In this document: positions 7,220 to 28,420 of the stretch, piece after piece
Numbering within the stretch: position 1 is the first letter of the stretch
Layout of the letters: each line of letters starts with the position of its first letter
From: Methanobacteriota archaeon
Lineage (GTDB): Archaea; Thermoplasmatota; Poseidoniia; Poseidoniales; Poseidoniaceae
Direction of reading: 5' to 3'
Assembly (NCBI GenBank): GCA_018650165.1
Contig: JABIGM010000038.1
Coordinates: 1-32,054 of the forward strand
DNA length: 32,054 nucleotides
Notes under the pieces: model-generated
The model's input: only the letters and a program-made list of their open reading frames with translations
Told to the model about the DNA's origin: nothing
Database searches by the model: none
Translations under genes and position numbers: made by a program

Positions 7220-8164
7220 TTATTCTTCTTCGTCATTTGGTTTGTCGATTGCGATTATAGTACATACAAATCCAAGCATACCTAAGGTCGCAAGCGACCA
7301 AGAAGATTGAATTTCTTGTGACCATGCATCTCTCGCCTCGCCACAATCACCTGTGATGCTTGAGTAAAAATCACACATCTCAACAGTTTCCCTAGCAGCC
7401 ATTGCATCAGCATCTAGCAATACATTGGCAAATGCGCCTAGAACAAGTAAGACCGAGATTACCAATGCAGCCTTGTGGAAATTTTCCCAGTTTTTTCGAT
7501 AAATGAACTTCCACTGGCTTTGACTCTTTGCTTGTTCCTTTCTAATCAGGTCACCTGCATTTACCCACTTGAACCAAGCAAGCCACATCAAAACCAGTAT
7601 TATCAGAAATCCCCACTGATAGACGAATGAATGAAAGTCATGCATTGGTTGCTCACAATACATCAAATTTGGATTTTCGTTACAACCAGAAACAGCTAAT
7701 GGATACAAAATAAGCAGCCTGATGATATTGAGGACATATACTATGCCACAGGCCACAATCGCACTCCTGATACGAAGTTTCTGTGGAACACCGGTAGTCA
7801 TCATAATCAGTACGGTAATGAATATCATTTCATGTACACCGGCACACTCATCGGAGACATACAATCGAATGTGGTCAAAGTAAAAGTCAGGGTGTTGCAG
7901 TGTTACCAAGGTTGTCCATCCATTATACTCTGACAGAGTTGCTGCGCCTGGGCCGTATATCAGTTCGGTCAACTGGTACCAGATCCATGCCTCAGATTCT
8001 TGAATAACACCAAGAGTATTTGTTGGTTGAGTGATGAACCAATAGAACATCTCGACAATAATTAGGGCCAACGGTATTCGCAAATAACCCCGTGCAAGTG
8101 TTCCAAATTCTCCCCAAGAGAGGTCTTCGACCTCCTCAATAAGTGGCTTGGAATCTTCCGCCAT
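7220..8164 (-). CDS. Archaeosortase/exosortase-family membrane transpeptidase
   Basis: This 314-residue polytopic membrane protein has the three family hallmarks: a catalytic cysteine in ECAGV (Cys107), an arginine in LNIIRLL (Arg149) and a histidine in HDFHSF (His175 or His178), each beside a predicted membrane helix. Exosortases and archaeosortases cut surface proteins at a C-terminal motif-helix-basic signal and pass them to a lipid or other acceptor. The N-terminal 25 residues and the C-terminus (KPNDEEE) are acidic and probably cytoplasmic. A large extra loop with four cysteines follows the last core helices. The gene stands alone between a helicase and the tusA-ribA cluster, as dedicated sortases often do not. 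A candidate substrate with a PGF-type tail lies at 26342-28420. The archaeosortase subfamily cannot be assigned by eye. Confidence 0.85.
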   Translation of the reverse strand: MAEDSKPLIEEVEDLSWGEFGTLARGYLRIPLALIIVEMFYWFITQPTNTLGVIQESEAWIWYQLTELIYGPGAATLSEYNGWTTLVTLQHPDFYFDHIRLYVSDECAGVHEMIFITVLIMMTTGVPQKLRIRSAIVACGIVYVLNIIRLLILYPLAVSGCNENPNLMYCEQPMHDFHSFVYQWGFLIILVLMWLAWFKWVNAGDLIRKEQAKSQSQWKFIYRKNWENFHKAALVISVLLVLGAFANVLLDADAMAARETVEMCDFYSSITGDCGEARDAWSQEIQSSWSLATLGMLGFVCTIIAIDKPNDEEE

Positions 8165-10144: not shown

Positions 10145-11176
10145 TTACATAGGTGGTTTCATGCCTCTGGGACGAAAAATCACCCACTTCATTTTCTTCA
10201 TTAGATTCCAGTAAAATCTGAATCCTACACCTATTGAACGGAATGGGTGACGAATAATATTGAGGGGATTTCCTATTTGCCATAGTGGATACAATAGTTG
10301 ATCGATCATATTTGGCTCAATATGTTCATCGATACCATACACGCTTGGGCGCTTGTCCTTTGGCATGTAATAGGTTCCAAACACTTGGTCCCATAATGGA
10401 AGCGCTACTCCATAATTTGTCCAAACTGCATCGTTTTCATTGCTATGGTGCCAATGGTGCATTTCTGGAGTCCCCACAAATGGATGCAGCCATCTAAATC
10501 TGAATTTTACATTTGCATGTAATAAGAGACCGAGAATAATTTGGAATATTGCGAATACTCCTGTTATCTCTGGACTGAAACCAGCGGCTATTAGGAATAT
10601 AAACGCGGGTGCAATCAATGTTCCATCAAATGGATGCGCCCTAAATCCACTAACCCAATCAAGATGTTCAGTTGAGTGATGAACAGCATGAAATTTCCAA
10701 AGAACTGGAATTTCATGGTAGAAGCGATGAGTCCAATATCCAATCATATCGAATATTAAAAAACCAACAATCGGCATCCATTGTACTGGAATCTCATCCA
10801 CTAATGGCCTGATTAGTAAGCCCGGTATCCAAGCGAAAGAAATGATGGCGACGATACCTGCGGCAATTAGTCCAACCAAATTGAGTAAAGGTGACGAAAG
10901 GGCATAACTAACATCCAATTTGTATAGTGGTCTACGGACTTTTTGCCCTTTGTGCCGTGGAAATAATTTCTCAACAGGTACTATGAGAATAAATAGGACA
11001 ATCATAAACACTAATCCTTCTGTTGAATAGAATACTGCCCCTCCAACAATCAATGCGGATAATAGGCGAATTAATGCTACTAATACCCATCCTCTGTCCT
11101 TTGCTTCTTCTTCAGGTGGGGGAGTATATTCCACTACTTCAGCAGGAAGAGGTCCAAGACGAATCTCTTCTTCCAT
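10145..11176 (-). CDS. Fatty acid hydroxylase / sterol desaturase superfamily membrane protein
   Basis: This 343-residue integral membrane protein has the di-iron histidine set of the superfamily: HRFYH, HAVHH and MHHWHH, with a further HANVKF-type histidine between the clusters. Several hydrophobic helices flank these (about 30-60, 95-120, 135-155, 190-220). Members use O2 to hydroxylate or desaturate lipid chains, sterols or carotenoids at the membrane. The position next to a beta-oxidation operon points to lipid metabolism, but a TATA-like box about 24 nt upstream of its ATG shows it has its own promoter. The acidic, Pro-rich N-terminus is cytoplasmic. The substrate cannot be decided from sequence; an archaeal lipid or carotenoid is possible. 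Confidence 0.85.
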   Translation of the reverse strand: MEEEIRLGPLPAEVVEYTPPPEEEAKDRGWVLVALIRLLSALIVGGAVFYSTEGLVFMIVLFILIVPVEKLFPRHKGQKVRRPLYKLDVSYALSSPLLNLVGLIAAGIVAIISFAWIPGLLIRPLVDEIPVQWMPIVGFLIFDMIGYWTHRFYHEIPVLWKFHAVHHSTEHLDWVSGFRAHPFDGTLIAPAFIFLIAAGFSPEITGVFAIFQIILGLLLHANVKFRFRWLHPFVGTPEMHHWHHSNENDAVWTNYGVALPLWDQVFGTYYMPKDKRPSVYGIDEHIEPNMIDQLLYPLWQIGNPLNIIRHPFRSIGVGFRFYWNLMKKMKWVIFRPRGMKPPM

Positions 11177-11284: not shown

Positions 11285-12397
11285 CTAAAGATAGTAATCA
11301 GGTTGCAAAGGCATTCCTGGCTCAACAGCGTACTGGTCAAAGTCCTCTATGCCTTCTTCTCGTAAAACCGATTCATCGGTGTGGAACTGTCCAGTAAATT
11401 CACTTGATTTACTCATTATCACGAATGCAGCATCGCCAACTATTCTTGGAATTCTACTACGTCTGACCATTTCAGCTCCACCAAGTGCCTCGTTGTATCT
11501 AACTGCGGCAGTATCAATTGTAGTGGCAGGCCAAAGGCCGTTTACAGATATTCCATCGCTTGATAATTCCTCTGCAAGACCCAATACAAGCATCGACATT
11601 GAGAATTTAGAGATTGTATAGGCTACAGTTCCCTTATACCACTTTGAATCCAATGAAATTGGCGGACAAATCAGTAATAATCGGCCGTTATCACTCTTGC
11701 GTAGGTGTGGTAATGCCGCTTGGCACAGCGCAAATGATGCACGGATATTTACCTCGTGGACAAGATCAAATCTCTTCATTGGAGTTTCATCAAACGGTGC
11801 AATAAATAACGCACCAGCATTGCAAATGACAGCATCAATTCCACCAAATGCATCAACACCTATCTGGACTGCAGCAATCACATCCTCATCATTGCGAACA
11901 TCACAAACCGCTGCTACTGCTTTGCCACCTACAGATTCAACCATTTCGGCGGTTTCATTCAGAGAGCCTTTCCCGTCTTCATCATCAAGTGTACGTCCAA
12001 GAAGAACAAGGTTTGCACCTTCTTCTGCGAAGCGTAGTGCCATTGCTCTCCCAAGTCCTCGACTGGACCCACTGATTAGCACAGTACGCCCAGCCCATGA
12101 TTCGATATCTGATATTTTTTCAGAACGCTGCATTAATTCATCGACAATGTCAGAGTATTCTCCCATTGCCTCTTCAGAGCCCTTACCTTTCTGTTTTTTC
12201 CAGGCTCGATATTTTGCTATTGCGACAATTCCTCCACTTACGGGGAGTCCTCCGGTTACATCACCTTCAGTAGATTGTTTATACAGAGAATATAGCAATA
12301 GCATAGTCTTGTCATCAGGTTTGCTACCAATGTTCATTACATCCTTTGCAGATTTCAAAAATCGCTTTTCGTTACCCAATCCATCAACTCCTTTCAT
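11285..12397 (-). CDS. Fusion of acyl-CoA-binding protein (ACBP) domain to HSDL2-like short-chain dehydrogenase
   Basis: This 370-residue two-domain protein has residues about 10-92 matching the ACBP fold by eye: SKPDD, LLLYSLYKQSTEGDV (Tyr36, Tyr39, Lys40 are the usual CoA-contact positions), KYRAWKKQKG and EEAMGEYSDIVDEL. Residues about 100-370 form a classical SDR, with the nucleotide loop SGSSRGLGRA (109-118), CDVRND, CNAG and the catalytic YTISK pair. Its end (IEDFDQYAVEPGMPLQPDYYL) resembles the HSDL2 group, but the SCP2 domain of HSDL2 is missing and an ACBP domain sits at the other end. It is the last gene of the beta-oxidation operon and overlaps the hydrolase gene by 14 bp. The likely role is an NAD(P)-dependent step on acyl-CoA intermediates held by the ACBP part. 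The substrate is inferred. Confidence 0.88.
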   Translation of the reverse strand: MKGVDGLGNEKRFLKSAKDVMNIGSKPDDKTMLLLYSLYKQSTEGDVTGGLPVSGGIVAIAKYRAWKKQKGKGSEEAMGEYSDIVDELMQRSEKISDIESWAGRTVLISGSSRGLGRAMALRFAEEGANLVLLGRTLDDEDGKGSLNETAEMVESVGGKAVAAVCDVRNDEDVIAAVQIGVDAFGGIDAVICNAGALFIAPFDETPMKRFDLVHEVNIRASFALCQAALPHLRKSDNGRLLLICPPISLDSKWYKGTVAYTISKFSMSMLVLGLAEELSSDGISVNGLWPATTIDTAAVRYNEALGGAEMVRRSRIPRIVGDAAFVIMSKSSEFTGQFHTDESVLREEGIEDFDQYAVEPGMPLQPDYYL

Positions 12398-13412
12398 TCA
12401 ACCAATTCTCGAGAATATTCCTTCTATTCGGTGAATCTAAAGTGGTAGTATGCTCCAAATCAGAAACCAGATGAAACTGGTTTTCCTCATCTTCAGGAAT
12501 ATGCTTTAAAATCAAATTGTAGTGCTTTCTACCAAGTGTGTTATCATTTTTTGATTGAAGTGTGAGCACTGGTATTTTTGGTATCCCAATCTGTGGTAGT
12601 TTTGCGTTCCAAAATCTAATTGGTAAATCAGGATGTATTCTTTCCATCTCAGTGCGAATAATTCGGCGAATCAAAGGGCGACCAAAATTCCACATCGAAC
12701 CTACTCGCATTTTAACAATCAATGGTATTGATGTTACAGATGATTCCAAAATCAAAGAATCGAGTTGATCTGCCCACCATCCCGATTTGTGACTAGACAG
12801 TCTTAGGGCAAGAAATCCCCCCATCGAATGCCCGTAGAAATGCACCCGTGGTAATTCCTTGTACTCAGCAAGGATGGTATCTAAAAAGGCCTCGATGTCT
12901 GCTGCTACTTTCAGTAATGTCCAATCTTGATTTAGATCACAGCTACCATGCCCTCTCATGTCGATACCGGCTACATCAAATCCTTGATTGCTAAGATGGG
13001 ATATTCGGCTTTCTGCCCACGACATAGAAGATGAATATCCATGCATGTACAAAATCAAACCTTTCGATTTACCTTTTGCTGAAATGAAATATCCTATTGG
13101 TTCTTCGCCCCCCCATCCTGTGAATTTTATGTGGCGCCAATTTGGATTGATGTTGTTTTCTCCAACCCTTGGATGAGCTAGGAAAAATGCTGACAATACC
13201 TTTGCTTCCAAAGCCAAGTAGGTTGCATTCAATGCAATAGCAATAGCAATTGTCCAGAATAGAATATTCACCAGAATTTGACTCTCCTGACTCCACAATA
13301 TCAACTCAATGACGATTAGGGCCCAGAATATAGTCCAAGGCCATGTCATTTTCCATTGCAAACTTTTGGAATATGCAGCCGCACCTTTGCTCATTGGATA
13401 CTGTGACTTCAT
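12384..13412 (-). CDS. Membrane-anchored alpha/beta hydrolase (lipase/esterase-like)
   Basis: This 342-residue protein has two N-terminal hydrophobic helices (about 22-40 and 47-68) and then an alpha/beta-hydrolase domain. The domain shows the oxyanion strand LILYMHGYSSS, the nucleophile elbow GHSMGG, an acid in LQSKNDNTLG and a final histidine in DLEHTTT, so the triad looks complete. It resembles monoacylglycerol-lipase-type serine hydrolases. In the operon its ATG shares a base with the acyl-CoA dehydrogenase stop (TGATG), with a GGAGG site about 10 nt upstream, so it is translationally coupled. A natural role is freeing fatty acids from lipids or esters at the membrane for beta-oxidation. 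A thioesterase is the main alternative. Confidence 0.87.
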   Translation of the reverse strand: MKSQYPMSKGAAAYSKSLQWKMTWPWTIFWALIVIELILWSQESQILVNILFWTIAIAIALNATYLALEAKVLSAFFLAHPRVGENNINPNWRHIKFTGWGGEEPIGYFISAKGKSKGLILYMHGYSSSMSWAESRISHLSNQGFDVAGIDMRGHGSCDLNQDWTLLKVAADIEAFLDTILAEYKELPRVHFYGHSMGGFLALRLSSHKSGWWADQLDSLILESSVTSIPLIVKMRVGSMWNFGRPLIRRIIRTEMERIHPDLPIRFWNAKLPQIGIPKIPVLTLQSKNDNTLGRKHYNLILKHIPEDEENQFHLVSDLEHTTTLDSPNRRNILENWLNERS

Positions 13413-15196
13413 CAGAAGGCAGCCTCCGGGTATGACATTAGGTGCTTGTGTCCTGCGAGGATTTTAGCGGCAAGTCCAACATTGTCTGGATGAATTTCTG
13501 CAAAGAATACTCTTGCGCTTGCAAGTTTGGCTTCATGAAATTCAGTTGAGGTTCCTTTAGTCTTAGCATCTAGACAAACTCGCGCCATTTTTGCCCATAA
13601 GTAGGCTAGTAAGGTATTTCCGAAGTATGTACAATAATCGGTAGCACCTGCTGCCAAGAAGTGTGGATTACCTGCGCCTTCTGCCATTAGGAGAAGTGTT
13701 AGTTGTTGTAATCCTTTTACACTTTTATGCAGTGGCTTATTGAATTCTTCCATTTCCTCAATAGCACGACTTTCTTCTATGAATTCAAGTAATGGCCACA
13801 TCAAATGACGAAGATTCTGACCGAAATTTTGGGTGACTTTTCGGCCTACTAAATCGAGTGCTTGTATTCCGTTAGTTCCTTCCCAAATGGGAGCAATTCT
13901 TACATCACGATAGAATTGTTCAACTCCGTATTCAGAACAATAACCAGCCCCTCCCATAACCTGGATAGAAAGCGATGCACTCTGACACCCAACATCTGTC
14001 GAATATGCCTTCATGACAGGAGTGAGTAATGCGATTAGTGAAGTAGCTTGTTTTTTGGTTTCTCCATCGCCTCTTTTCATCTCATCGAGTAGTATCCCAA
14101 TCCATGTTCCTAGGGCTCTAGTGCCTTCACAGTTAACTTTGGCCTTTAGCAACATTCTACGGACATCTGGATGAACTAGAATGTTATCTGCAGGAGCATC
14201 TAGATCTTTCATACCACGTAGGTCTCTTCCTTGACGTCTTTCTAGAGACCAGGCTAATGCATTTTGATATGCAATTTCACCCAGTCCAAGACCCATCATT
14301 CCAGTGGCAAGTCTTTCTCTGTTCATCATCTCGAACATCAGCGCCATACCTGTATTCTCTTCACCTACTAGCCAGCCTTTACTAGAATCGAAATTAAGTA
14401 CACAGGTTGGTGAACCATGGAGGCCCATTTTGTCTTCAATTCCTGAAATTGATGTACCGTTTTTTTCACTGGAAAGATCATCACCTTCACTGAGGTATTT
14501 TGGTACAAGAAATAGCGAGATACCTTTGGAACCCTCTGGAGCATCTGGTAGTTTCGCTAGCACCATATGAACGATATTATCACTCAAATCATGGTCGCCT
14601 GCTGTAATGAATATCTTTGTACCTGTTATCGTATATGTTCCATCTTCTTGAGGGATTGCTTTGGTCTTGATCAGCCCAAGGTCGGTACCACAATGTGGCT
14701 CGGTAAGGCACATTGTGCCACACCATTCTCCGCTACCAATTTTGGCAGCATAAAGGTCGATATTTTCCTGTGAAGCATGACCACTTATTATGTCGTAAAC
14801 ACCCAGGCTCAATGCGGCTACAACGGAGATTGCCATATTGCAAGAAATCGCAGGCTCATCCATTGCATTACGGAAGAAGAGTGGCAATTCCATACCTCCA
14901 TGTTCCTCTTTGCAAACCGCCTGTAGCCAGCCGGAATCAACAGTTTGCTTCCATGCCTCTTTGAAACCAGGTGGTGAGAAAACTTCTCCATTCTTCAATT
15001 GAGAACCAAATTTATCACCATCAATGTTTGATGGCTTCCACACATCAATAACGAATTGTGACCACTCTTCAGTCATCATATCCAAGGCCTCTCTGTCCAT
15101 ATTATCATACTCTAAGCGATTACACACTTCAACAACATCGAATACTTCGTGGAATAGGAAATTGTAGTCGTCCAAAGGAGCCTTGTATACAGTCAT
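13412..15196 (-). CDS. Acyl-CoA dehydrogenase, DmdC/long FadE-like family
   Basis: This is a flavin acyl-CoA dehydrogenase of about 594 residues, longer than the common 380-residue type. It has an N-terminal extension beginning MTVYKAPLDDYNFL and a C-terminal extra domain, as in the DmdC-like group. FAD/substrate motifs are visible (CLTEPHCGTDLGLIKTKA; GTKIFITAGDHD). The catalytic base is the Glu in PIWEGTNGIQALDL. It makes the alpha-beta double bond of acyl-CoA in the first step of beta-oxidation. A start at 15202 is possible, but the strong AAGGAGGG site at 15203-15210 has proper 6-nt spacing only for 15196. DmdC itself acts on methylmercaptopropionyl-CoA, but the neighbours argue for fatty acids. 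The electron-transfer flavoprotein is not in view. Confidence 0.92.
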   Translation of the reverse strand: MTVYKAPLDDYNFLFHEVFDVVEVCNRLEYDNMDREALDMMTEEWSQFVIDVWKPSNIDGDKFGSQLKNGEVFSPPGFKEAWKQTVDSGWLQAVCKEEHGGMELPLFFRNAMDEPAISCNMAISVVAALSLGVYDIISGHASQENIDLYAAKIGSGEWCGTMCLTEPHCGTDLGLIKTKAIPQEDGTYTITGTKIFITAGDHDLSDNIVHMVLAKLPDAPEGSKGISLFLVPKYLSEGDDLSSEKNGTSISGIEDKMGLHGSPTCVLNFDSSKGWLVGEENTGMALMFEMMNRERLATGMMGLGLGEIAYQNALAWSLERRQGRDLRGMKDLDAPADNILVHPDVRRMLLKAKVNCEGTRALGTWIGILLDEMKRGDGETKKQATSLIALLTPVMKAYSTDVGCQSASLSIQVMGGAGYCSEYGVEQFYRDVRIAPIWEGTNGIQALDLVGRKVTQNFGQNLRHLMWPLLEFIEESRAIEEMEEFNKPLHKSVKGLQQLTLLLMAEGAGNPHFLAAGATDYCTYFGNTLLAYLWAKMARVCLDAKTKGTSTEFHEAKLASARVFFAEIHPDNVGLAAKILAGHKHLMSYPEAAF

Positions 15197-15202
15197 AAGC
15201 AT

Positions 15203-15210
15203 CCCTCCTT
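15203..15210 (-). promoter_or_regulatory. Strong Shine-Dalgarno site deciding the acyl-CoA dehydrogenase start
   Basis: On the minus strand it reads AAGGAGGG. It touches the possible ATG at 15202 but is 6 nt from the ATG at 15196, which favours the shorter protein. It overlaps the end of the upstream gene. Confidence 0.6.
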
Positions 15211-17600
15211 CAGTTCCTCAATGGTTTGCCTTTGCTCAGCATATGTTCCATTCTAGCCAGGCTTAGTTCATTTCGAGCCAGTGTCGAAATTGCTTTTCTT
15301 TCGAGCGCAAGAATGTCGTCCTCACTCAATTCCTTTGTATGGTCACATTCTCCTCCGGTCAGAACTTTTGCAAGTTCACTGATAACCGTAATGTCATGAG
15401 GGGTAGCATGACCGGCAATAGCAAGATCGTTCAACGCCATGGCTAGTGCGGATTTTCCAGAAGGCCCAGGTAGGTGGTAGACATGAGGTACAGGTGGGCA
15501 ATAATCTTCGGCTAGTTCTAGCAAGTATGATTTAGCATTGGACAAAACATGATTACGGTTCATAGTGATACGGTCGCTTCCTCGAAGGTAACCTAGATCT
15601 TTGGCCTGTTGAGCAGATTTAGCAATCTTAGCCATACCTATATTTTCGAATACCATCATGGTTGCAGCCATTGGCCCCAATCCTACGAGTTTCTCTGTAG
15701 TGACTCGTGCAAGCATCTCTTTACAACCTCCCCAGGCGGGGATAATACCTACTCCGGTTTCAACCAATCCGATATATGATTCTGAATGTGCAACAATACC
15801 ATCGGAGTGCAGAAGAATTTCACATCCACCTCCAAGGCACATTCCAGATGCTGCCGAAACAACAGGGACTTCGGCATATTTTAGAGCTTGATATGTGTCT
15901 TGACCTAGAGCAATAAAGTCCTCCAATGTGCCCCATGCTCCAAGGTTTGCAGCAAATAATGCAAGTCCAAGATTTGCACCTGCACAGAAATTGGCAGAAT
16001 CGTTGGCGATTAGTATTCCCTTCCAACCATCGCTTTCTGCAATGTCTACAGCAGCGAGGAGTATTTCCATGATAAATGGATCTAAAGCATTCATTTTTGA
16101 GTGGAATTCCACTAAAAGGACTCCATCATTGGCATCCCAAATACTGGCCGAAGCATTTCTTCTAATCGCCTCACCTCGTCTACGTTTGATGTCTGCTACA
16201 GTAGTATCTTGAGCGCCTTTTAGAATTTGATTGTGTCCTCCAGTGAAATCCAGTCGAGTTATTTCGGCTTCCTCTATCCCGTAGAACGAACCGTGCTCTG
16301 CCGCAAGTGACAGGAATGGCGGAATTACAATATTAGATGATTTCATTTCTTTGACAAGCCAATCGATACCAATGGAATCCATCATTTCAAAAGGTCCCTT
16401 CTTCCAACTATATCCTACCTTCATCGCATCATCAATCGCATGAATATCTTCACTGACAGTCGGTACGAGTGAGGCAGCATAAGCAAACGTATCAAGCAAT
16501 ATTTCTTTGACGAAAGTAGCACCCTTGTCCGGGTGAGTCATAAGGCGCTTGAGTCCTTGCCGACCGACTTTAGCAGAAGAAAAAGCAGCCTTGCGATTAG
16601 CGGTTTGATATGCTCCGTCGACGAGACTTCTTGCTTCTTTAGTGCGCTTACCACCTTCGGTATTGAGTCTGAAGAATCCACCTTTACCCTTGCGCCCAGT
16701 ATATCCATCAGAGATCATTTTCTCAATGACATCTACTCCCTTTCCTGCTATGGTGTGCAGTGGGTCCTCAGGTGGCAGATTATCCACCATGCTCTGGACA
16801 ACGGCGGGAATAATATCGATTCCAACTAGGTCCATCAATGCGAAAACACCAGTCTTTGGTAAGCCAATAGGACGGCCAAGCATAGCATCTGCCTGTTCCA
16901 CGGTGAAGCCATAATCTAATGTGGCTGCAATGGAACGTTGGACGAAGTATATTCCAAGACGATTGCCTATGAAGCCCGGAGTGTCATTGCAAAGAATTAC
17001 TTTCTTTCCGAGTCTCTCGGATGCGAAGATATTCATTTTGTGGAATAAGTCCTCTTCCACTTCTTCTCCGACAACTAATTCCAGTAAAGGGAGATAGCGA
17101 GGGGGATTGAAAAAGTGTGTAATTAGGAATCTTGAAGCTAAAGATGAACTCATCCCCTTGACAAGAGACGATCTTGGAATTGTTGATGTGTTTGAAGATA
17201 AAATAGCACTTTTTGAAAGATGTTTTTCTATATTGGAATAGATGGTGTGCTTGATGTCAAGGCGTTCCACTACAACTTCCACTACCCAGTCTCTATCTTT
17301 GAGGAGATGCAAATCATCCTCAAGATTAACGGGGTGTATTCTTTGGGAATTTGATGGGTGCATAAGAGGTTCAGGGTTACTTTTTTTCATTCGTAATATT
17401 GCTTCTCGAGCAACAATAGACCTATCAGTGGCACCTTTTGGGACGATGTCGTATAGTAGAACATCGCAACCTGCATTTGCACAATGGGCGGCAATACCTG
17501 CGCCCATGATTCCACTTCCAATAACTGCAACTTTGTTGATAGAACCATTGCTCTTCAATTCGGTTTTAATCACAGGAGATTGGATGTCAAGTACCATCAT
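15210..17600 (-). CDS. 3-hydroxyacyl-CoA dehydrogenase / enoyl-CoA hydratase, FadN-type domain order
   Basis: This 796-residue bifunctional beta-oxidation enzyme starts with the NAD-binding Rossmann motif VAVIGSGIMGAGIA (about 25-38), then hydroxyacyl-CoA dehydrogenase features SSNTSTIP, THFFNPP and NDTPGFIGNRLG, and two C-terminal dehydrogenase domains. The last 300 residues are a crotonase (NFCAGANLGLAL, SGMCLGGGCEI oxyanion loops, LVETGVGIIP with the catalytic-region Glu). Dehydrogenase first and hydratase last is the order of Bacillus FadN and some archaeal enzymes, the reverse of E. coli FadB; the length fits FadN (about 790). It hydrates enoyl-CoA and oxidises the 3-hydroxyacyl-CoA to 3-ketoacyl-CoA. 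The ATG overlaps the thiolase stop by 4 bp, and GGAGGG lies 4 nt upstream. Confidence 0.93.
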   Translation of the reverse strand: MMVLDIQSPVIKTELKSNGSINKVAVIGSGIMGAGIAAHCANAGCDVLLYDIVPKGATDRSIVAREAILRMKKSNPEPLMHPSNSQRIHPVNLEDDLHLLKDRDWVVEVVVERLDIKHTIYSNIEKHLSKSAILSSNTSTIPRSSLVKGMSSSLASRFLITHFFNPPRYLPLLELVVGEEVEEDLFHKMNIFASERLGKKVILCNDTPGFIGNRLGIYFVQRSIAATLDYGFTVEQADAMLGRPIGLPKTGVFALMDLVGIDIIPAVVQSMVDNLPPEDPLHTIAGKGVDVIEKMISDGYTGRKGKGGFFRLNTEGGKRTKEARSLVDGAYQTANRKAAFSSAKVGRQGLKRLMTHPDKGATFVKEILLDTFAYAASLVPTVSEDIHAIDDAMKVGYSWKKGPFEMMDSIGIDWLVKEMKSSNIVIPPFLSLAAEHGSFYGIEEAEITRLDFTGGHNQILKGAQDTTVADIKRRRGEAIRRNASASIWDANDGVLLVEFHSKMNALDPFIMEILLAAVDIAESDGWKGILIANDSANFCAGANLGLALFAANLGAWGTLEDFIALGQDTYQALKYAEVPVVSAASGMCLGGGCEILLHSDGIVAHSESYIGLVETGVGIIPAWGGCKEMLARVTTEKLVGLGPMAATMMVFENIGMAKIAKSAQQAKDLGYLRGSDRITMNRNHVLSNAKSYLLELAEDYCPPVPHVYHLPGPSGKSALAMALNDLAIAGHATPHDITVISELAKVLTGGECDHTKELSEDDILALERKAISTLARNELSLARMEHMLSKGKPLRN

Positions 17601-18721
17601 TCAACCCTCCTGAGTACTGTGGCAATTCCCTGGCCACCGCCTATGCACATGGTTGCAAGTGCAATATTCGCTTTATTTCGTGTGAGTATTGTTACAGCAC
17701 GTCCAACAATTCTTGCACCGCTGGCTCCAAGTGGGTGGCCAAGTGCGAGAGCACCCCCGTCGATGTTGACCTTGGAGGTGTCTATTCCAAGTTCTTCAAT
17801 AACTGCAAGTGATTGTGCTGAAAATGCCTCATTAAGTTCGATTACATCGATATCTTCCAGGCCGACACCGGCTCTAGCCAGTGCTTTCTGAGATGCACCA
17901 ACTGGACCTATGCCCATAATTTCGGGAGAGCAACCTGACACAGCAGTTGATTCTATAGATGCTAGTATCTTTAATCCTTGTGTGCGTGCAAATTCATCGC
18001 TACAAACGAGGACAAAGGCAGCACCATCTGTGAGCGGTGAAGAAGTTCCAGCGGTTACGCTACCATCCGCCTTGAATGCAGGCTTCAGTCTAGCAAGGGA
18101 ACTTGTATTGGAATCGGGTCTAATACAACCATCAGTTGAGACCACTCCATCAGTAGTGGTTATTGGAATTATGACATCAGTGAAGTCAGCATTCGCTGCC
18201 TTGCGGTGGCTTTCAACAGCAAATTCTTCTTGATTTTTCCGTTCAATTTCATAGATTGCAGCAAGATTCTCAGCAGTCAATCCCATGTTTGTGAAAGCAT
18301 CTGGCATTTCTGCTGCGAGTCTTGGATTAGGCATTGGATTAAAACCTGACATTGGTATTCTTGTCATAGATTCAACCCCTCCTGCGATAAATGCATCTCC
18401 CGAGCCCATAGCGATTCTACCGGCGGCATCATGAATCGCTTGCATTGAAGACCCACAAAACCGATTGACAGTAACCCCGGCGACTGTGTGTGGTAACTCG
18501 GTGAGGAAGGATAGCATTCTTCCCAAATTGAAGCCCTGTTCAGCTTCAGGAAAAGCGCAACCTAGTATCAAGTCTTCAATCAGATTTGGATCAATTCCAG
18601 TTTTTTCAATCAATCCCTTAACGACTTCAGCCGCTATGTCATCAGGTCGAGAACCTGCCAAATCTCCTTTTTTGGCGGGGGTGAATGGGGACCTATAGTA
18701 TCCACAAATTACGGCTGGCAT
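17597..18721 (-). CDS. Acetyl-CoA acyltransferase (3-ketoacyl-CoA thiolase)
   Basis: This 374-residue thiolase has all active-site residues: the nucleophile Cys89 in NRFCGSS, His329 in GHPLGASG and Cys359 in CIGGGQG, plus the NEAF motif. It cleaves 3-ketoacyl-CoA with CoA to acetyl-CoA and a shortened acyl-CoA, the last step of the cycle. Degradative rather than biosynthetic direction is inferred from the operon. It is the first gene of the five-gene unit, and a TTTAATTATT box about 25 nt before its ATG is a good leaderless promoter for the whole operon. The length is a little short for FadA/FadI (about 390-430) but the core is complete. Confidence 0.94.
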   Translation of the reverse strand: MPAVICGYYRSPFTPAKKGDLAGSRPDDIAAEVVKGLIEKTGIDPNLIEDLILGCAFPEAEQGFNLGRMLSFLTELPHTVAGVTVNRFCGSSMQAIHDAAGRIAMGSGDAFIAGGVESMTRIPMSGFNPMPNPRLAAEMPDAFTNMGLTAENLAAIYEIERKNQEEFAVESHRKAANADFTDVIIPITTTDGVVSTDGCIRPDSNTSSLARLKPAFKADGSVTAGTSSPLTDGAAFVLVCSDEFARTQGLKILASIESTAVSGCSPEIMGIGPVGASQKALARAGVGLEDIDVIELNEAFSAQSLAVIEELGIDTSKVNIDGGALALGHPLGASGARIVGRAVTILTRNKANIALATMCIGGGQGIATVLRRVE

Positions 18722-23554: not shown

Positions 23555-26296
23555 ATGGCAACTAAGCGCGTCAGTATTATTCTTCTCGTAATCCTAGTTG
23601 CATATCTTCCATCTCCTGTTGTGGCAGATGGCGATACTCAAGTCGTTTCTCAGTTTGGAGTAAGTTTCGAAGAGGTTGTAATTGCCGATTCTTCCGATGC
23701 TCTCTCCGATCCAAGAGATCTTGAATTCCATCCCGGTAGGGCTAACGAACTTTGGATTGCAAATCGGGCAACTGATAGTATGACCATAGTCCACAATACC
23801 GGGCTTGTAAACCAAACTTCAGAAAACCGTCATGATGCTTATGGCAACCATTTTCTTGAAGAGGTAAGTGCAATTTCTTTCGGGACATATCATCCTGAAT
23901 TTGATTGGCAGTGGGGTTCAGCCCAAGAATCTGCTAATACTTACTGTGGACAAGGTAGTCCAAATAATTTCATGGGACCCACACTTTGGCCATCATCACT
24001 AAGTCACTATGCAGTGGAGCATCAAAGCGACCAATACCTCGGTAGTCACATCGACATGAACCATGAATCCCCGTACGGGATGGGGATTGCCCATGATTCA
24101 GGTAATTCATACTGGTACAATGATGGTCATAATGGTGAATTGGTTTACTATGATTTTCAAGAAGACCATGATACTGGTATGGACGACCATTCCGATGGTA
24201 TAGTCCGACGATATTCCGATGTCCAGTTAACCCATTCTTATGGTACGCCGGGGCACATGGTACTCGACAAAAACTCTGGTATACTCTACATTTCAGACCC
24301 AGGTTCAAGCCGAGTCGTTTGGGTAAATACCGATGATACAACTTACAACACAGTGAACATAATGAGCGATTCATCTAGACTTGAACCACTAGCAGAGTAT
24401 TCCCGCATCACTGGAATTGAATGGGGTGTTCTTGATACAGGCCTAAGTAAGCCTTCTGGAATCGCCTTGGAGGGCGATCAGTTATTTGTTTCATTGAAAG
24501 GCAATGGTCGTATTATCGCCTATGATTTGAGCACAAACGGAAAGAGTGCAACTGAAGCTGGCTCAATTCAAACATCAGCATCTGCCATAATGGGCTTAGA
24601 AATAGGTCCAAATGGGCATATTTACTATGTTGACAATGGAGCTGATGAAGTAGTCAGAATAGATCCCAATAACGATGGGGATGATGATGGAGTTGTTGAC
24701 CAGGATGACAATTGCCCTCTAATCGCAAATCCGAGTCAGGCAAACCATGACAACGATTTACAGGGTGATGTTTGCGATGAAGATGATGATAACGACGGTG
24801 TGCTAGATAATCTAGACAACTGTGCAACTGGAGATTTGGCTTGGTCGCAATCCTCTGCTACCGATCATGACATGGATGGTTGTAGAGATTCTTCAGAAGA
24901 CTATGATGATGACAATGATGGTGTCCTAGACATTGGAGATGGTTGCTCTACAGGTGAACTAGCCTGGACTTCAACAACTGATCTGGACTACGATGGAGAT
25001 GGCTGTAAAGATGCTACAGAAGATTATGATGATGATAATGACAACATTTGTGATTCAAGTTGGAATGAGGATTGGGGATGTATGCTCTCAACATTGGATG
25101 TTGACTTCTGTCCCGAAAGCCATCCAACGTTCTTTTCAGTATTATCTAACGATGCAGACCAAGATGGCTGTGAAGATAGAAATGAAGACAAAGATGATGA
25201 CAATGATGGTTTCTTAGATGGCCAAGATGATTGTCCAATTGAAACTGGTTTTAGCGATACTGGAAGAATATTTGGATGTCCGGATTCTGACGGTGATGGC
25301 TACGCAAATACAATTGATGTATTCCCTGACGAGCCTAGTCAATGGTCGGATGTAGATGAGGATGGCTTTGGTGATCAATCAGACGGCTTAGATGGAGATG
25401 ATTGCCCTGGTGTTTATGGAACCTCGAATCAAGACCGCACTGGTTGCTTGGATTCAGATGGAGATGGGTACTCAAATCCAGATTCAAATTGGGATACTAC
25501 GCTAGGAGCCGACGCATTTTCGACTGATATTACACAGCACCTAGACGGTGATGGAGATGGATATGGTGACAATATGGATGGGTTCCAAGCTGATTCCTGT
25601 TCAGAGATTGCAGGAACTTCGAACCAGGACCGTTTTGGCTGTTTGGATTCAGATGGTGATGGCTGGTCCGATGAAGGAGATATGTTGCCTCTCGACCCCA
25701 CCCAGCATTCTGATGATGATGGTGATGGCTATGGTGACTCATTACTTGGAAATACTCCTGATAGTTGTCCAAGTGTGTATGGGCTTTCTAGCGAGCAGCG
25801 CTACGGTTGTCTAGATTCAGATAGTGATGGTTGGGATGATGAATTTGATGCATTCCCTGACAATATCAAGTTCTGGTCAGATACAGATGGAGACTCACAT
25901 CCGGACCAACAAGACACTGAACTTTCAGACGACTGCCCTGATGAGGCAGGTGATTCATATGAAGACCGAATCGGTTGTCCAGATTCGGATGGAGATGGTT
26001 GGTCTGACAAAGCTGATTCATATCCCGATGACGCCTCACGCCATCTTGAATCGGATAGCACTTCTCTCATACTGATAGTAGTTGGAATTGTAGTTGTTGG
26101 AATTGCTCTAGGTTTACTTTTCTTGAATCGAAGAAAGGGCGGCGATATGATTCAGAATGTTGATTATAATCCAACAATAATGACTCCACAAGTCCCAGTT
26201 CAGGCTGGGCCACCATTGCCTCCAGAAGGATTACCTGTTGGTTGGACTATGGAACAGTGGGCTTGGTATGGTGAAGATTATCTCAAGAATCGCTAA
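23555..26296 (+). CDS. Type I surface protein with propeller-like domain and TSP3-like calcium repeats
   Basis: This 913-residue protein starts with a signal peptide (hydrophobic core IILLVILVAYLPSP, likely cut near VVA-DG, residue 24). Residues about 30-370 look like NHL/propeller blades (LEFHPGRANELWIANRATDSMTIV; ILYISDPGSSRVVWVN; HIYYVDNGADEVVRID). Residues about 370-830 are acidic TSP3-like repeats with many D-x-D-x-D-G loops and regular cysteines (CLDSDGDGW, CPDSDGDGY), so they are expected to bind many Ca2+ ions and form a stiff stalk. A transmembrane helix at about 836-858 (LILIVVGIVVVGIALGLLFL) is followed by NRRKGG and a 50-residue cytoplasmic tail that ends in a Trp/Tyr-rich motif, GWTMEQWAWYGEDYL. 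It is probably an adhesin or cell-surface binding protein. Confidence 0.9.
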   Translation: MATKRVSIILLVILVAYLPSPVVADGDTQVVSQFGVSFEEVVIADSSDALSDPRDLEFHPGRANELWIANRATDSMTIVHNTGLVNQTSENRHDAYGNHFLEEVSAISFGTYHPEFDWQWGSAQESANTYCGQGSPNNFMGPTLWPSSLSHYAVEHQSDQYLGSHIDMNHESPYGMGIAHDSGNSYWYNDGHNGELVYYDFQEDHDTGMDDHSDGIVRRYSDVQLTHSYGTPGHMVLDKNSGILYISDPGSSRVVWVNTDDTTYNTVNIMSDSSRLEPLAEYSRITGIEWGVLDTGLSKPSGIALEGDQLFVSLKGNGRIIAYDLSTNGKSATEAGSIQTSASAIMGLEIGPNGHIYYVDNGADEVVRIDPNNDGDDDGVVDQDDNCPLIANPSQANHDNDLQGDVCDEDDDNDGVLDNLDNCATGDLAWSQSSATDHDMDGCRDSSEDYDDDNDGVLDIGDGCSTGELAWTSTTDLDYDGDGCKDATEDYDDDNDNICDSSWNEDWGCMLSTLDVDFCPESHPTFFSVLSNDADQDGCEDRNEDKDDDNDGFLDGQDDCPIETGFSDTGRIFGCPDSDGDGYANTIDVFPDEPSQWSDVDEDGFGDQSDGLDGDDCPGVYGTSNQDRTGCLDSDGDGYSNPDSNWDTTLGADAFSTDITQHLDGDGDGYGDNMDGFQADSCSEIAGTSNQDRFGCLDSDGDGWSDEGDMLPLDPTQHSDDDGDGYGDSLLGNTPDSCPSVYGLSSEQRYGCLDSDSDGWDDEFDAFPDNIKFWSDTDGDSHPDQQDTELSDDCPDEAGDSYEDRIGCPDSDGDGWSDKADSYPDDASRHLESDSTSLILIVVGIVVVGIALGLLFLNRRKGGDMIQNVDYNPTIMTPQVPVQAGPPLPPEGLPVGWTMEQWAWYGEDYLKNR

Positions 26297-26341: not shown

Positions 26342-28420
26342 TCACTGTTCGACCGGACGACGCTTAAGTGCGACAACGATTAGTAGGCAGAGTGTGCCTA
26401 ACATAGTAAATCCAGGTAGCAGAGCTGGGCTTTCATCGGTGTAACCATCTCCCCACAGATGGTACAACTTTACCGTAGGGTCATCCCATCTCTCGCCAGC
26501 GTCGGTGTAAATTATGATAGTATCACCATCATCGAGGTAGTTATTTTCATTTACATCTGTATATGTAAATGTCCAATTATTTCCAGATGGGTCTGTTGCT
26601 TGACCGGATTCCATTTGCGCTAGGTCAAAGGAAACATGCAATGTAAACTCGTCTTCCTCAAGATCGTCATTATATTCCGTATATCCCAAATCAAGCCTAA
26701 ATTCAGCAAGGCTGTTTTGGAACTTCATCTCATCTTCTACAAGATATCCAAATCCATAAAGTCCATCTCTATTAGATTCACCGAGACTGTAATAATTTAA
26801 CTCTGCAACAACCGATAGATTTTCACCAATTTCACTAGCGGTTGAACGTTTGAACCAAAACTCAGTACCCTTGTACCGGTCTTCATAGTTCCACATTTCT
26901 AAATAATCATCTAAAATAAAGTGGAGATATTCATTGTCCATTTCTAAGAATGTCAAGTTAGTTGTAGTTTCACAAGAATCTGTTGCTTCAACATATACTG
27001 CATGTGTAAATTGTCCAAGTCCTGAGCAGCGCAAATAAATTTCATTTTCTAGGTCGGGTTGCAAACCTTCGTCAGCACCATCACTACAATCTACGGTACC
27101 ATCATTTATTTGGCTGATTTCAACGCTACCTCCTTCGCAGTAGAACAACTGAATATTTGCTGCTGCATCGACCGAGGTTGTGACTAAGTTACCATCTTCA
27201 ATTCTCATGGTGTGATAGTCTTCTGACCATCCATCCCATCCTCCCTTGTGCTTATCTGTACTAAATCCAGCATTCCAGAAATAATCGATATCAGTCATAT
27301 CTGCAAATGTGTGGATTGAAGCATTATCGTTATAGTATTCATTACACCATTCTGGCATCTCTTCTTCAGTTACCTGTTCTTTTATGGCATTGATTTCATC
27401 GAATGTGACCATCTGGTCTCCTGGTATATCAGCAGCCCAATTACAATCCCATAAATACTCACGTGCATCATAATTTCTTTCAAGAAGGAATGGAGATGCT
27501 GCAGCCGGATATGTGTCTGAAATAGTTTTAACATCCACATCGATTATTGAAATTTTAGATTCGACATTTTCAAATCCCACACCAAAGGTATCCGCTGAAG
27601 TTGAAGACTTAACCACTAAAGAAACCATTTTTAATTCGCCATCGAAGTTAATGTAATATGTCTCATTATCAACAGTTGTAAAAATAGTTTGATAACCCTT
27701 TTCGACAGTCATTGACCAATCGTATTCCGCAAATATATCTTCACCAAAGAACAACGGAGATTGCCTACCTGTAGCCATTAATTCATCGATCTCTTCTTGC
27801 GATACTCCCTCATCAGTTCCATCTTCGCAGTGTTCCATGCCATCATTTACCCATTCCATTGGTACCTCATATCCATTCTCACAGGTAAAATAAGGGTCCA
27901 TGGTGGCATCATCACCAGTTCCTTGTAGGATTAAAGCATCAAGTAATTCAGTAACATTTTCTAACTCATCGTTCAAATTATACCATTCATCTTCGGAGTT
28001 AACATTGATAATTTCCCCATTTTGTCGGACTTCATAATAAGCCATTTGCATACCATCCATTGCATAGGTGTATGTGTATCGCATAGCGTCATTTTCGGCA
28101 TCAAAAACCTCAATTGTTGTAATTTCTGTAACCATTGAATCTCCATCGATTTCAACATCTGTTTTCACCACAGTTTCAACCCCATATGATTCGCCATTAG
28201 CTCTGCTTTGGTCTAAGGCCAACATTTGTGTTATCGCAGCACTTTCCAGTTCACTTTGTGAAGCTGGCATCACACATGAATCGTCGCCCTCATCTGCAGT
28301 TGAATCGTAGTTAACAGCATCAGAGTCTGTACAGCCAGTAGTGGGGTCATCACCCCCGAGACATCCAGCCAGAGAGGTAGTCAGCAGCAAGCATGCAATC
28401 AAAGCATGAATAATCTTCAT
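26342..28420 (-). CDS. Lipoprotein with LDLa-like modules and C-terminal PGF-CTERM-like sorting signal
   Basis: This 692-residue surface protein has a lipobox LAGC (Cys20), then a short module GCTDSDAVNYDSTADEGDDSC (split: GCTDSDAVNYDS and ADEGDDSC) of a type seen in secreted marine proteins. Residues about 178-205 and 426-452 look like cut-down LDL-receptor class A modules: C-E-N-G...ND-G...HCEDGTDE and C-E-G-G...ND-G...DCSDGADE, keeping the calcium-box acids but only two of six cysteines. The C-terminus is LLPGF, then a hydrophobic helix, then KRRPVEQ, matching the PGF-CTERM signal (PGF at 669-671) cut by archaeosortases. A TATA box lies 26 nt before the ATG. The middle of the protein is unassigned beta-rich sequence. 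Dual N- and C-terminal lipid anchoring is possible. Confidence 0.87.
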   Translation of the reverse strand: MKIIHALIACLLLTTSLAGCLGGDDPTTGCTDSDAVNYDSTADEGDDSCVMPASQSELESAAITQMLALDQSRANGESYGVETVVKTDVEIDGDSMVTEITTIEVFDAENDAMRYTYTYAMDGMQMAYYEVRQNGEIINVNSEDEWYNLNDELENVTELLDALILQGTGDDATMDPYFTCENGYEVPMEWVNDGMEHCEDGTDEGVSQEEIDELMATGRQSPLFFGEDIFAEYDWSMTVEKGYQTIFTTVDNETYYINFDGELKMVSLVVKSSTSADTFGVGFENVESKISIIDVDVKTISDTYPAAASPFLLERNYDAREYLWDCNWAADIPGDQMVTFDEINAIKEQVTEEEMPEWCNEYYNDNASIHTFADMTDIDYFWNAGFSTDKHKGGWDGWSEDYHTMRIEDGNLVTTSVDAAANIQLFYCEGGSVEISQINDGTVDCSDGADEGLQPDLENEIYLRCSGLGQFTHAVYVEATDSCETTTNLTFLEMDNEYLHFILDDYLEMWNYEDRYKGTEFWFKRSTASEIGENLSVVAELNYYSLGESNRDGLYGFGYLVEDEMKFQNSLAEFRLDLGYTEYNDDLEEDEFTLHVSFDLAQMESGQATDPSGNNWTFTYTDVNENNYLDDGDTIIIYTDAGERWDDPTVKLYHLWGDGYTDESPALLPGFTMLGTLCLLIVVALKRRPVEQ

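Follow-up and report, generated by a model that had tools for sequence, protein, structure and literature searches.

The window analysed here, a stretch of 32,054 nucleotides, comes from a Candidatus Poseidoniaceae (MGII) archaeon, and close copies of the protein under study occur in other metagenome-assembled genomes (MAGs) of this family. On its minus strand lies an operon whose genes, tightly packed or overlapping, code in order for an acetyl-CoA acyltransferase (thiolase, 17597..18721), a FadB-like fusion of 3-hydroxyacyl-CoA dehydrogenase, which comes first, with enoyl-CoA hydratase (15210..17600), an acyl-CoA dehydrogenase (ACAD, 13412..15202; these three assigned by Pfam and NCBIfam), an alpha/beta hydrolase (12384..13412; Pfam) and, closing the operon, a protein in which an ACBP domain is joined to an SDR (ACBP-SDR, 11285..12397). 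With thiolase, FadB and ACAD genes upstream, the beta-oxidation setting proposed by the initial annotation holds, and the same three genes with ACBP downstream recur in extended Poseidoniales loci. The core cycle (acyl-CoA dehydrogenase, hydratase/3-hydroxyacyl-CoA dehydrogenase, thiolase) is complete without ACBP-SDR. After a gap of 108 bp comes a gene of the fatty acid hydroxylase superfamily, weakly OlsE-like (10145..11176, minus strand). As G086 is alone among the extended fused loci in having a homologue at this place, it is uncertain whether the gene belongs to the operon. Elsewhere, the window codes for an exosortase/archaeosortase-family protein (7220-8164, minus strand; NCBIfam TIGR04178) and for large proteins at 23555-26296 (plus strand) and 26342-28420 (minus strand), among whose matches are a thrombospondin type 3 repeat and an LDL-receptor class A-like one; these are perhaps surface proteins.

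A single open frame on the minus strand fits 11285-12397, the plus-strand reading of this interval being broken by many stops. Read from ATG 12397, the frame codes for 370 residues and overlaps the hydrolase gene by 14 bp. This ATG is probably not the start. TTG 12379, which would yield 364 residues, is the likelier choice, because a Shine-Dalgarno-like AAAGGAG (12388..12394, minus strand) lies 8 nt before it and because three relatives of the fusion have no start codon available upstream of the residue-7 position, two of them carrying an in-frame TAG there. A scan for promoters and terminators gave no signal clearly exceeding shuffles.

The N-terminal ACBP domain claimed by the initial annotation is borne out by profile search. 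Pfam ACBP (PF00887) matches residues 10-85 (12143..12370, minus strand) with an E-value of 8.7e-16 and 58.3 bits, against a curated cut-off of 28.3, and residues 11-91 match ACBP structures (phmmer, E 1.6e-13), mammalian-type ACBP being the best solved relative. The ligand residues F13, L33, Y36, Y39, K40, K62 and Y81 correspond to bovine F5, L25, Y28, Y31, K32, K54 and Y73; all seven acyl-CoA contacts, whose retention had likewise been proposed, are kept in 12 of 12 fused proteins (this one and 11 relatives). No other ACBP match was found in the source genome, which is 80% complete. A short linker (residues 86-101; 12095..12142, minus strand), delimited by alignment of the fused proteins and extended by some 40-50 residues in G027 and G096, leads to the second domain.

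This second domain (residues 102-370; 11288..12094, minus strand) is an HSDL2-like SDR, as had been suggested. Pfam adh_short covers residues 105-298 (E 2.5e-33), NCBIfam NF006133/PRK08278 covers residues 100-370 (E 1.2e-97; 326 bits against a cut-off of 250), and the best PDB match in phmmer is human HSDL2 (3kvo; residues 97-370, E 4.3e-71). An AlphaFold model built from 6 close sequences reached a pLDDT of 55, with the ACBP half low and a domain arrangement that is not usable; Foldseek re-finds with it HSDL2-like SDRs only, 3kvo first. Classical SDR features are present, namely the glycine-rich nucleotide-binding motif SGSSRGLG and YxxxK (Y260/K264), and an NAG motif (CNAG) is kept as well. 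By the usual coenzyme rules for SDRs, two arginines, Arg113 within the glycine motif and Arg135 behind the second strand, point to a preference for NADP(H). The catalytic serine of classical SDRs is absent: the SDR alignment places Cys244 (11666..11668, minus strand) at this position, and every fused member has Cys or Ala there. HSDL2 and most bacterial relatives read SPP, with serine, at the same place. As a consequence of this substitution across the fused clade, SDR activity cannot be assumed. A lead towards AtuG, presumably a terpenol dehydrogenase, was also followed, and the literature search produced nothing decisive.

Among 293 Poseidoniales genomes, ACBP matches were found in 66, the operon FadB in 60, an HSDL2-like SDR in 16 and the fused frame in 12, all counts that rest on incomplete MAGs. 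The fusion is kept across five genera and two families, its frame unbroken in all 12 genomes, and in the family of the source genome it is present in 8 of the 8 FadB-positive genomes. The SDR halves of the 11 other fused genomes are 63-93% identical to this one, and dN/dS values of 0.08-0.15 for the ACBP half and 0.03-0.07 for the SDR half show that both are under purifying selection. That ACBP-SDR is a real protein of two domains, belonging to the beta-oxidation operon of Poseidoniales, is thereby confirmed. In three further genomes (G268, G069 and G250) ACBP and SDR are encoded separately by adjacent genes that fill the same slot behind the alpha/beta hydrolase, and the SDRs of G069 and G250 keep the serine. 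In G277 the SDR lies away from the operon; its neighbourhood appears on both C84 and C11 (L071, L072), probably an assembly duplicate, and a further divergent SDR-like gene sits beside it. An operon fragment in G059:C17 (L089) is nearly identical to G046:C1 (L104) of another family, a probable case of misbinning on a 5 kb contig. When 341 genomes of the phylum were searched, ACBP matches were confined to the class of the source genome. In one bacterial phylum ACBP was found in 11 of 247 genomes, and four of the longest ACBP open frames there contained no SDR. In the open-access literature we found no publication describing this protein.

An ACBP phylogeny groups all 12 fused domains together (94/89) and nests them within the clade of operonic ACBPs (100/98), separate from the non-operonic ones; by this placement the ACBP half derives from the ACBP gene of the operon itself. 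The SDR phylogeny unites the fused SDRs with the separate SDR of G268 in one clade (100/100), a clade restricted to fused SDRs being neither shown nor rejected (p-AU 0.42). In the tree of ACAD plus FadB the fused genomes make one clade (100/100), a single change, and genus g15, which belongs to the other family, nests among the family of the source genome, which suggests operon transfer between families. The three genomes in which two separate, adjoining genes occupy the slot after the hydrolase indicate that neighbours were joined in place. A single event, in which the ACBP gene of the operon was fused where it stood to the HSDL2-like SDR gene downstream, is therefore favoured, if not proven. 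Its independence from the eukaryotic SDR-SCP2 combination, as initially proposed, agrees with the different carrier, the opposite terminus and the derivation of the ACBP half from the operon.

Human HSDL2 belongs to the same SDR subfamily and also has an attached lipid-carrier domain. However, its SCP2 stands at the C-terminus, whereas in ACBP-SDR the carrier is at the other end and Cys replaces Ser; Pfam found no SCP2 match in ACBP-SDR, which ends with the SDR. HSDL2 has been linked to fatty acid oxidation, its own substrate not being known (PMC11141617), and we found in the literature no substrate for any HSDL2-like SDR. The idea that a carrier was tethered here to the 'same dehydrogenase' thus stands for the subfamily; the same activity, or a service of ACBP to this SDR like that of SCP2 to HSDL2, would be conjecture, given that the fused clade is devoid of the canonical serine and that the substrate of HSDL2 itself is not known. 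HSDL2-SCP2 is a fair analogy, and ACBD2/ECI2 is closer in layout: there too an N-terminal ACBP (2cqu, matched by sequence) is joined to an accessory beta-oxidation enzyme, although that enzyme is a crotonase-fold isomerase and not an SDR. The combination of ACBP with enoyl-CoA isomerase has been reported from animals only, and a 2020 review of ACBD proteins states that extended forms are not found among prokaryotes (PMC7057175). Another extended archaeal ACBP is encoded in G370:C53 (L101:8098-8880), in another family of the same class; its second domain is SnoaL-like and its ACBP belongs to a different clade. Among bacteria, a plasmid of Alloyangia pacifica (NZ_CP022193) carries a stand-alone PRK08278 SDR in the same order, thiolase-FadB-ACAD-SDR, with 60, 47, 46 and 46% identity, respectively, to the proteins of the source operon, but with neither alpha/beta hydrolase nor ACBP, and with the serine kept in its SDR. 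Other bacterial SDR relatives are mostly unlinked to a thiolase-FadB-ACAD operon, several of them adjoining genes of acyl-CoA enzymes.

In most other genera the small operonic ACBP, of the same clade and in the same slot, is unfused and followed by genes for a hotdog-type protein (DUF4442) and a flavoenzyme of the NMO family (L097, L098, L099, L100, L102, L104, L105 and L106), the best NCBIfam match of the latter being FabK, below cut-off. DUF4442 and FabK/NMO were searched for in 31 genomes, 25 of which, bearing the operon, were counted: neither gene occurs in the 15 genomes that have an operonic SDR, and both occur in the 10 that do not. For independent genomes the chance of such a split would be about 3e-7, but independence does not apply here; at least two switches are required on the ACAD plus FadB tree, hence few independent ones, the MAGs counted are incomplete, and genus g17 has one genome of each kind. 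Judging by this mutual exclusion, the SDR would seem to stand in for a flavin reductase module, and the slot to house an exchangeable acyl-CoA redox module. There is a parallel: FadH, a flavin and Fe-S enzyme, and the unrelated NADPH-dependent eukaryotic DECR perform the same step, and DECR complements an Escherichia coli fadH mutant (PMC12691678). By analogy we hypothesize that the step in the slot may be the reduction of an unsaturated acyl-CoA. Taken in full, the proposal would be that two unrelated modules, DUF4442 with a FabK-like flavoenzyme and the HSDL2-like SDR, interchange for the same acyl-CoA reduction, the SDR having been welded to ACBP in one lineage so that an enoyl- or dienoyl-CoA reductase, its active site altered, came to be tethered to a carrier; in so specific a form the proposal is unlikely.

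At a more general level, ACBP-SDR is rather probably an ACBP-linked accessory acyl-CoA oxidoreductase. Its ACBP half, to judge from the kept ligand residues, would bind a medium- or long-chain acyl-CoA and keep it near the SDR half with its NADP(H) site for a presumed hand-over of substrate. Acyl-CoAs beyond the reach of the core enzymes would then undergo an accessory redox step in the SDR half. Our best guess for this step is that an off-pathway acyl-CoA, either unsaturated or 3-oxo, is reduced, as the same slot holds a FabK-like flavoenzyme in sister genera. Two features do not go in this direction. Replacement of the canonical serine by Cys or Ala often lowers SDR activity, which counts against an accessory oxidoreductase. 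Furthermore, known SDR-type dienoyl-CoA reductases have no YxxxK tyrosine; the tyrosine retained here is atypical for DECR and counts against a reaction of that kind. An enoyl or dienoyl reductase, taken alone, is accordingly a somewhat unlikely assignment.

Set against that reductase assignment, and equally contained within the general oxidoreductase explanation, the SDR may be a second 3-hydroxyacyl-CoA dehydrogenase, for instance (R)-specific, or a fatty alcohol or aldehyde dehydrogenase, to which ACBP would supply substrate or from which it would remove product. Canonical YxxxK favours alcohol/ketone chemistry, and phmmer finds 3-hydroxyacyl-CoA dehydrogenases of the MFE-2 type as sequence neighbours. 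However, FadB already brings a 3-hydroxyacyl-CoA dehydrogenase to the operon, the NADP(H)-type residues favour reduction and a flavoenzyme fills the slot in sister genera, which leaves this alternative doubtful, yet a serious contender. The fusion might, instead, be functionally meaningless, having arisen by neutral read-through from one gene into a neighbour expressed together with it: where the genes adjoin, as in three genomes, it could suffice to lose one stop codon together with a short spacer. Persistence in five genera and two families, as 12 unbroken frames with every ligand residue intact, makes this quite improbable. It is even less probable that the SDR half is weak or inactive and the protein mainly a buffer of acyl-CoA, or a sensor of acyl-CoA and NADP(H) regulating the enzymes of the operon. 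To be sure, the serine is replaced in all fused members and CNAG stands where most relatives have NNAS, but neither YxxxK nor the nucleotide-binding motif has been lost, conservation is stronger in the SDR half than in the ACBP half, and the unlinked relative in G277 also has Ala at the serine position. Finally, that an assembly error or a frameshift artificially joined two genes, a natural worry with a metagenome-assembled genome, is scarcely credible and was dismissed, since the same fused frame occurs in 11 further genomes, linker lengths vary over the 12 species-level genomes and both domains have dN/dS values well below 1.

We retain the accessory acyl-CoA oxidoreductase as the preferred reading of ACBP-SDR. 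Beyond the initial annotation, the analysis contributes a probable TTG start, intermediates in which the two genes are split, and the finding that the SDR does not co-occur with DUF4442 and FabK/NMO in the operon genomes counted. The protein belongs to abundant, uncultured archaea of the ocean, whose relatives preserve both the joined and the side-by-side states, and it offers a small soluble system for asking whether tethering an acyl-CoA carrier helps catalysis. It also supplies an operon context for the HSDL2 family and, should the interchange of reductases prove true, this would parallel FadH and DECR and point to a reaction for that family. In MGII, intermediate steps of fatty acid degradation are missing in several families (PMC6336850), and the alternative modules of this slot might bear on those missing steps.
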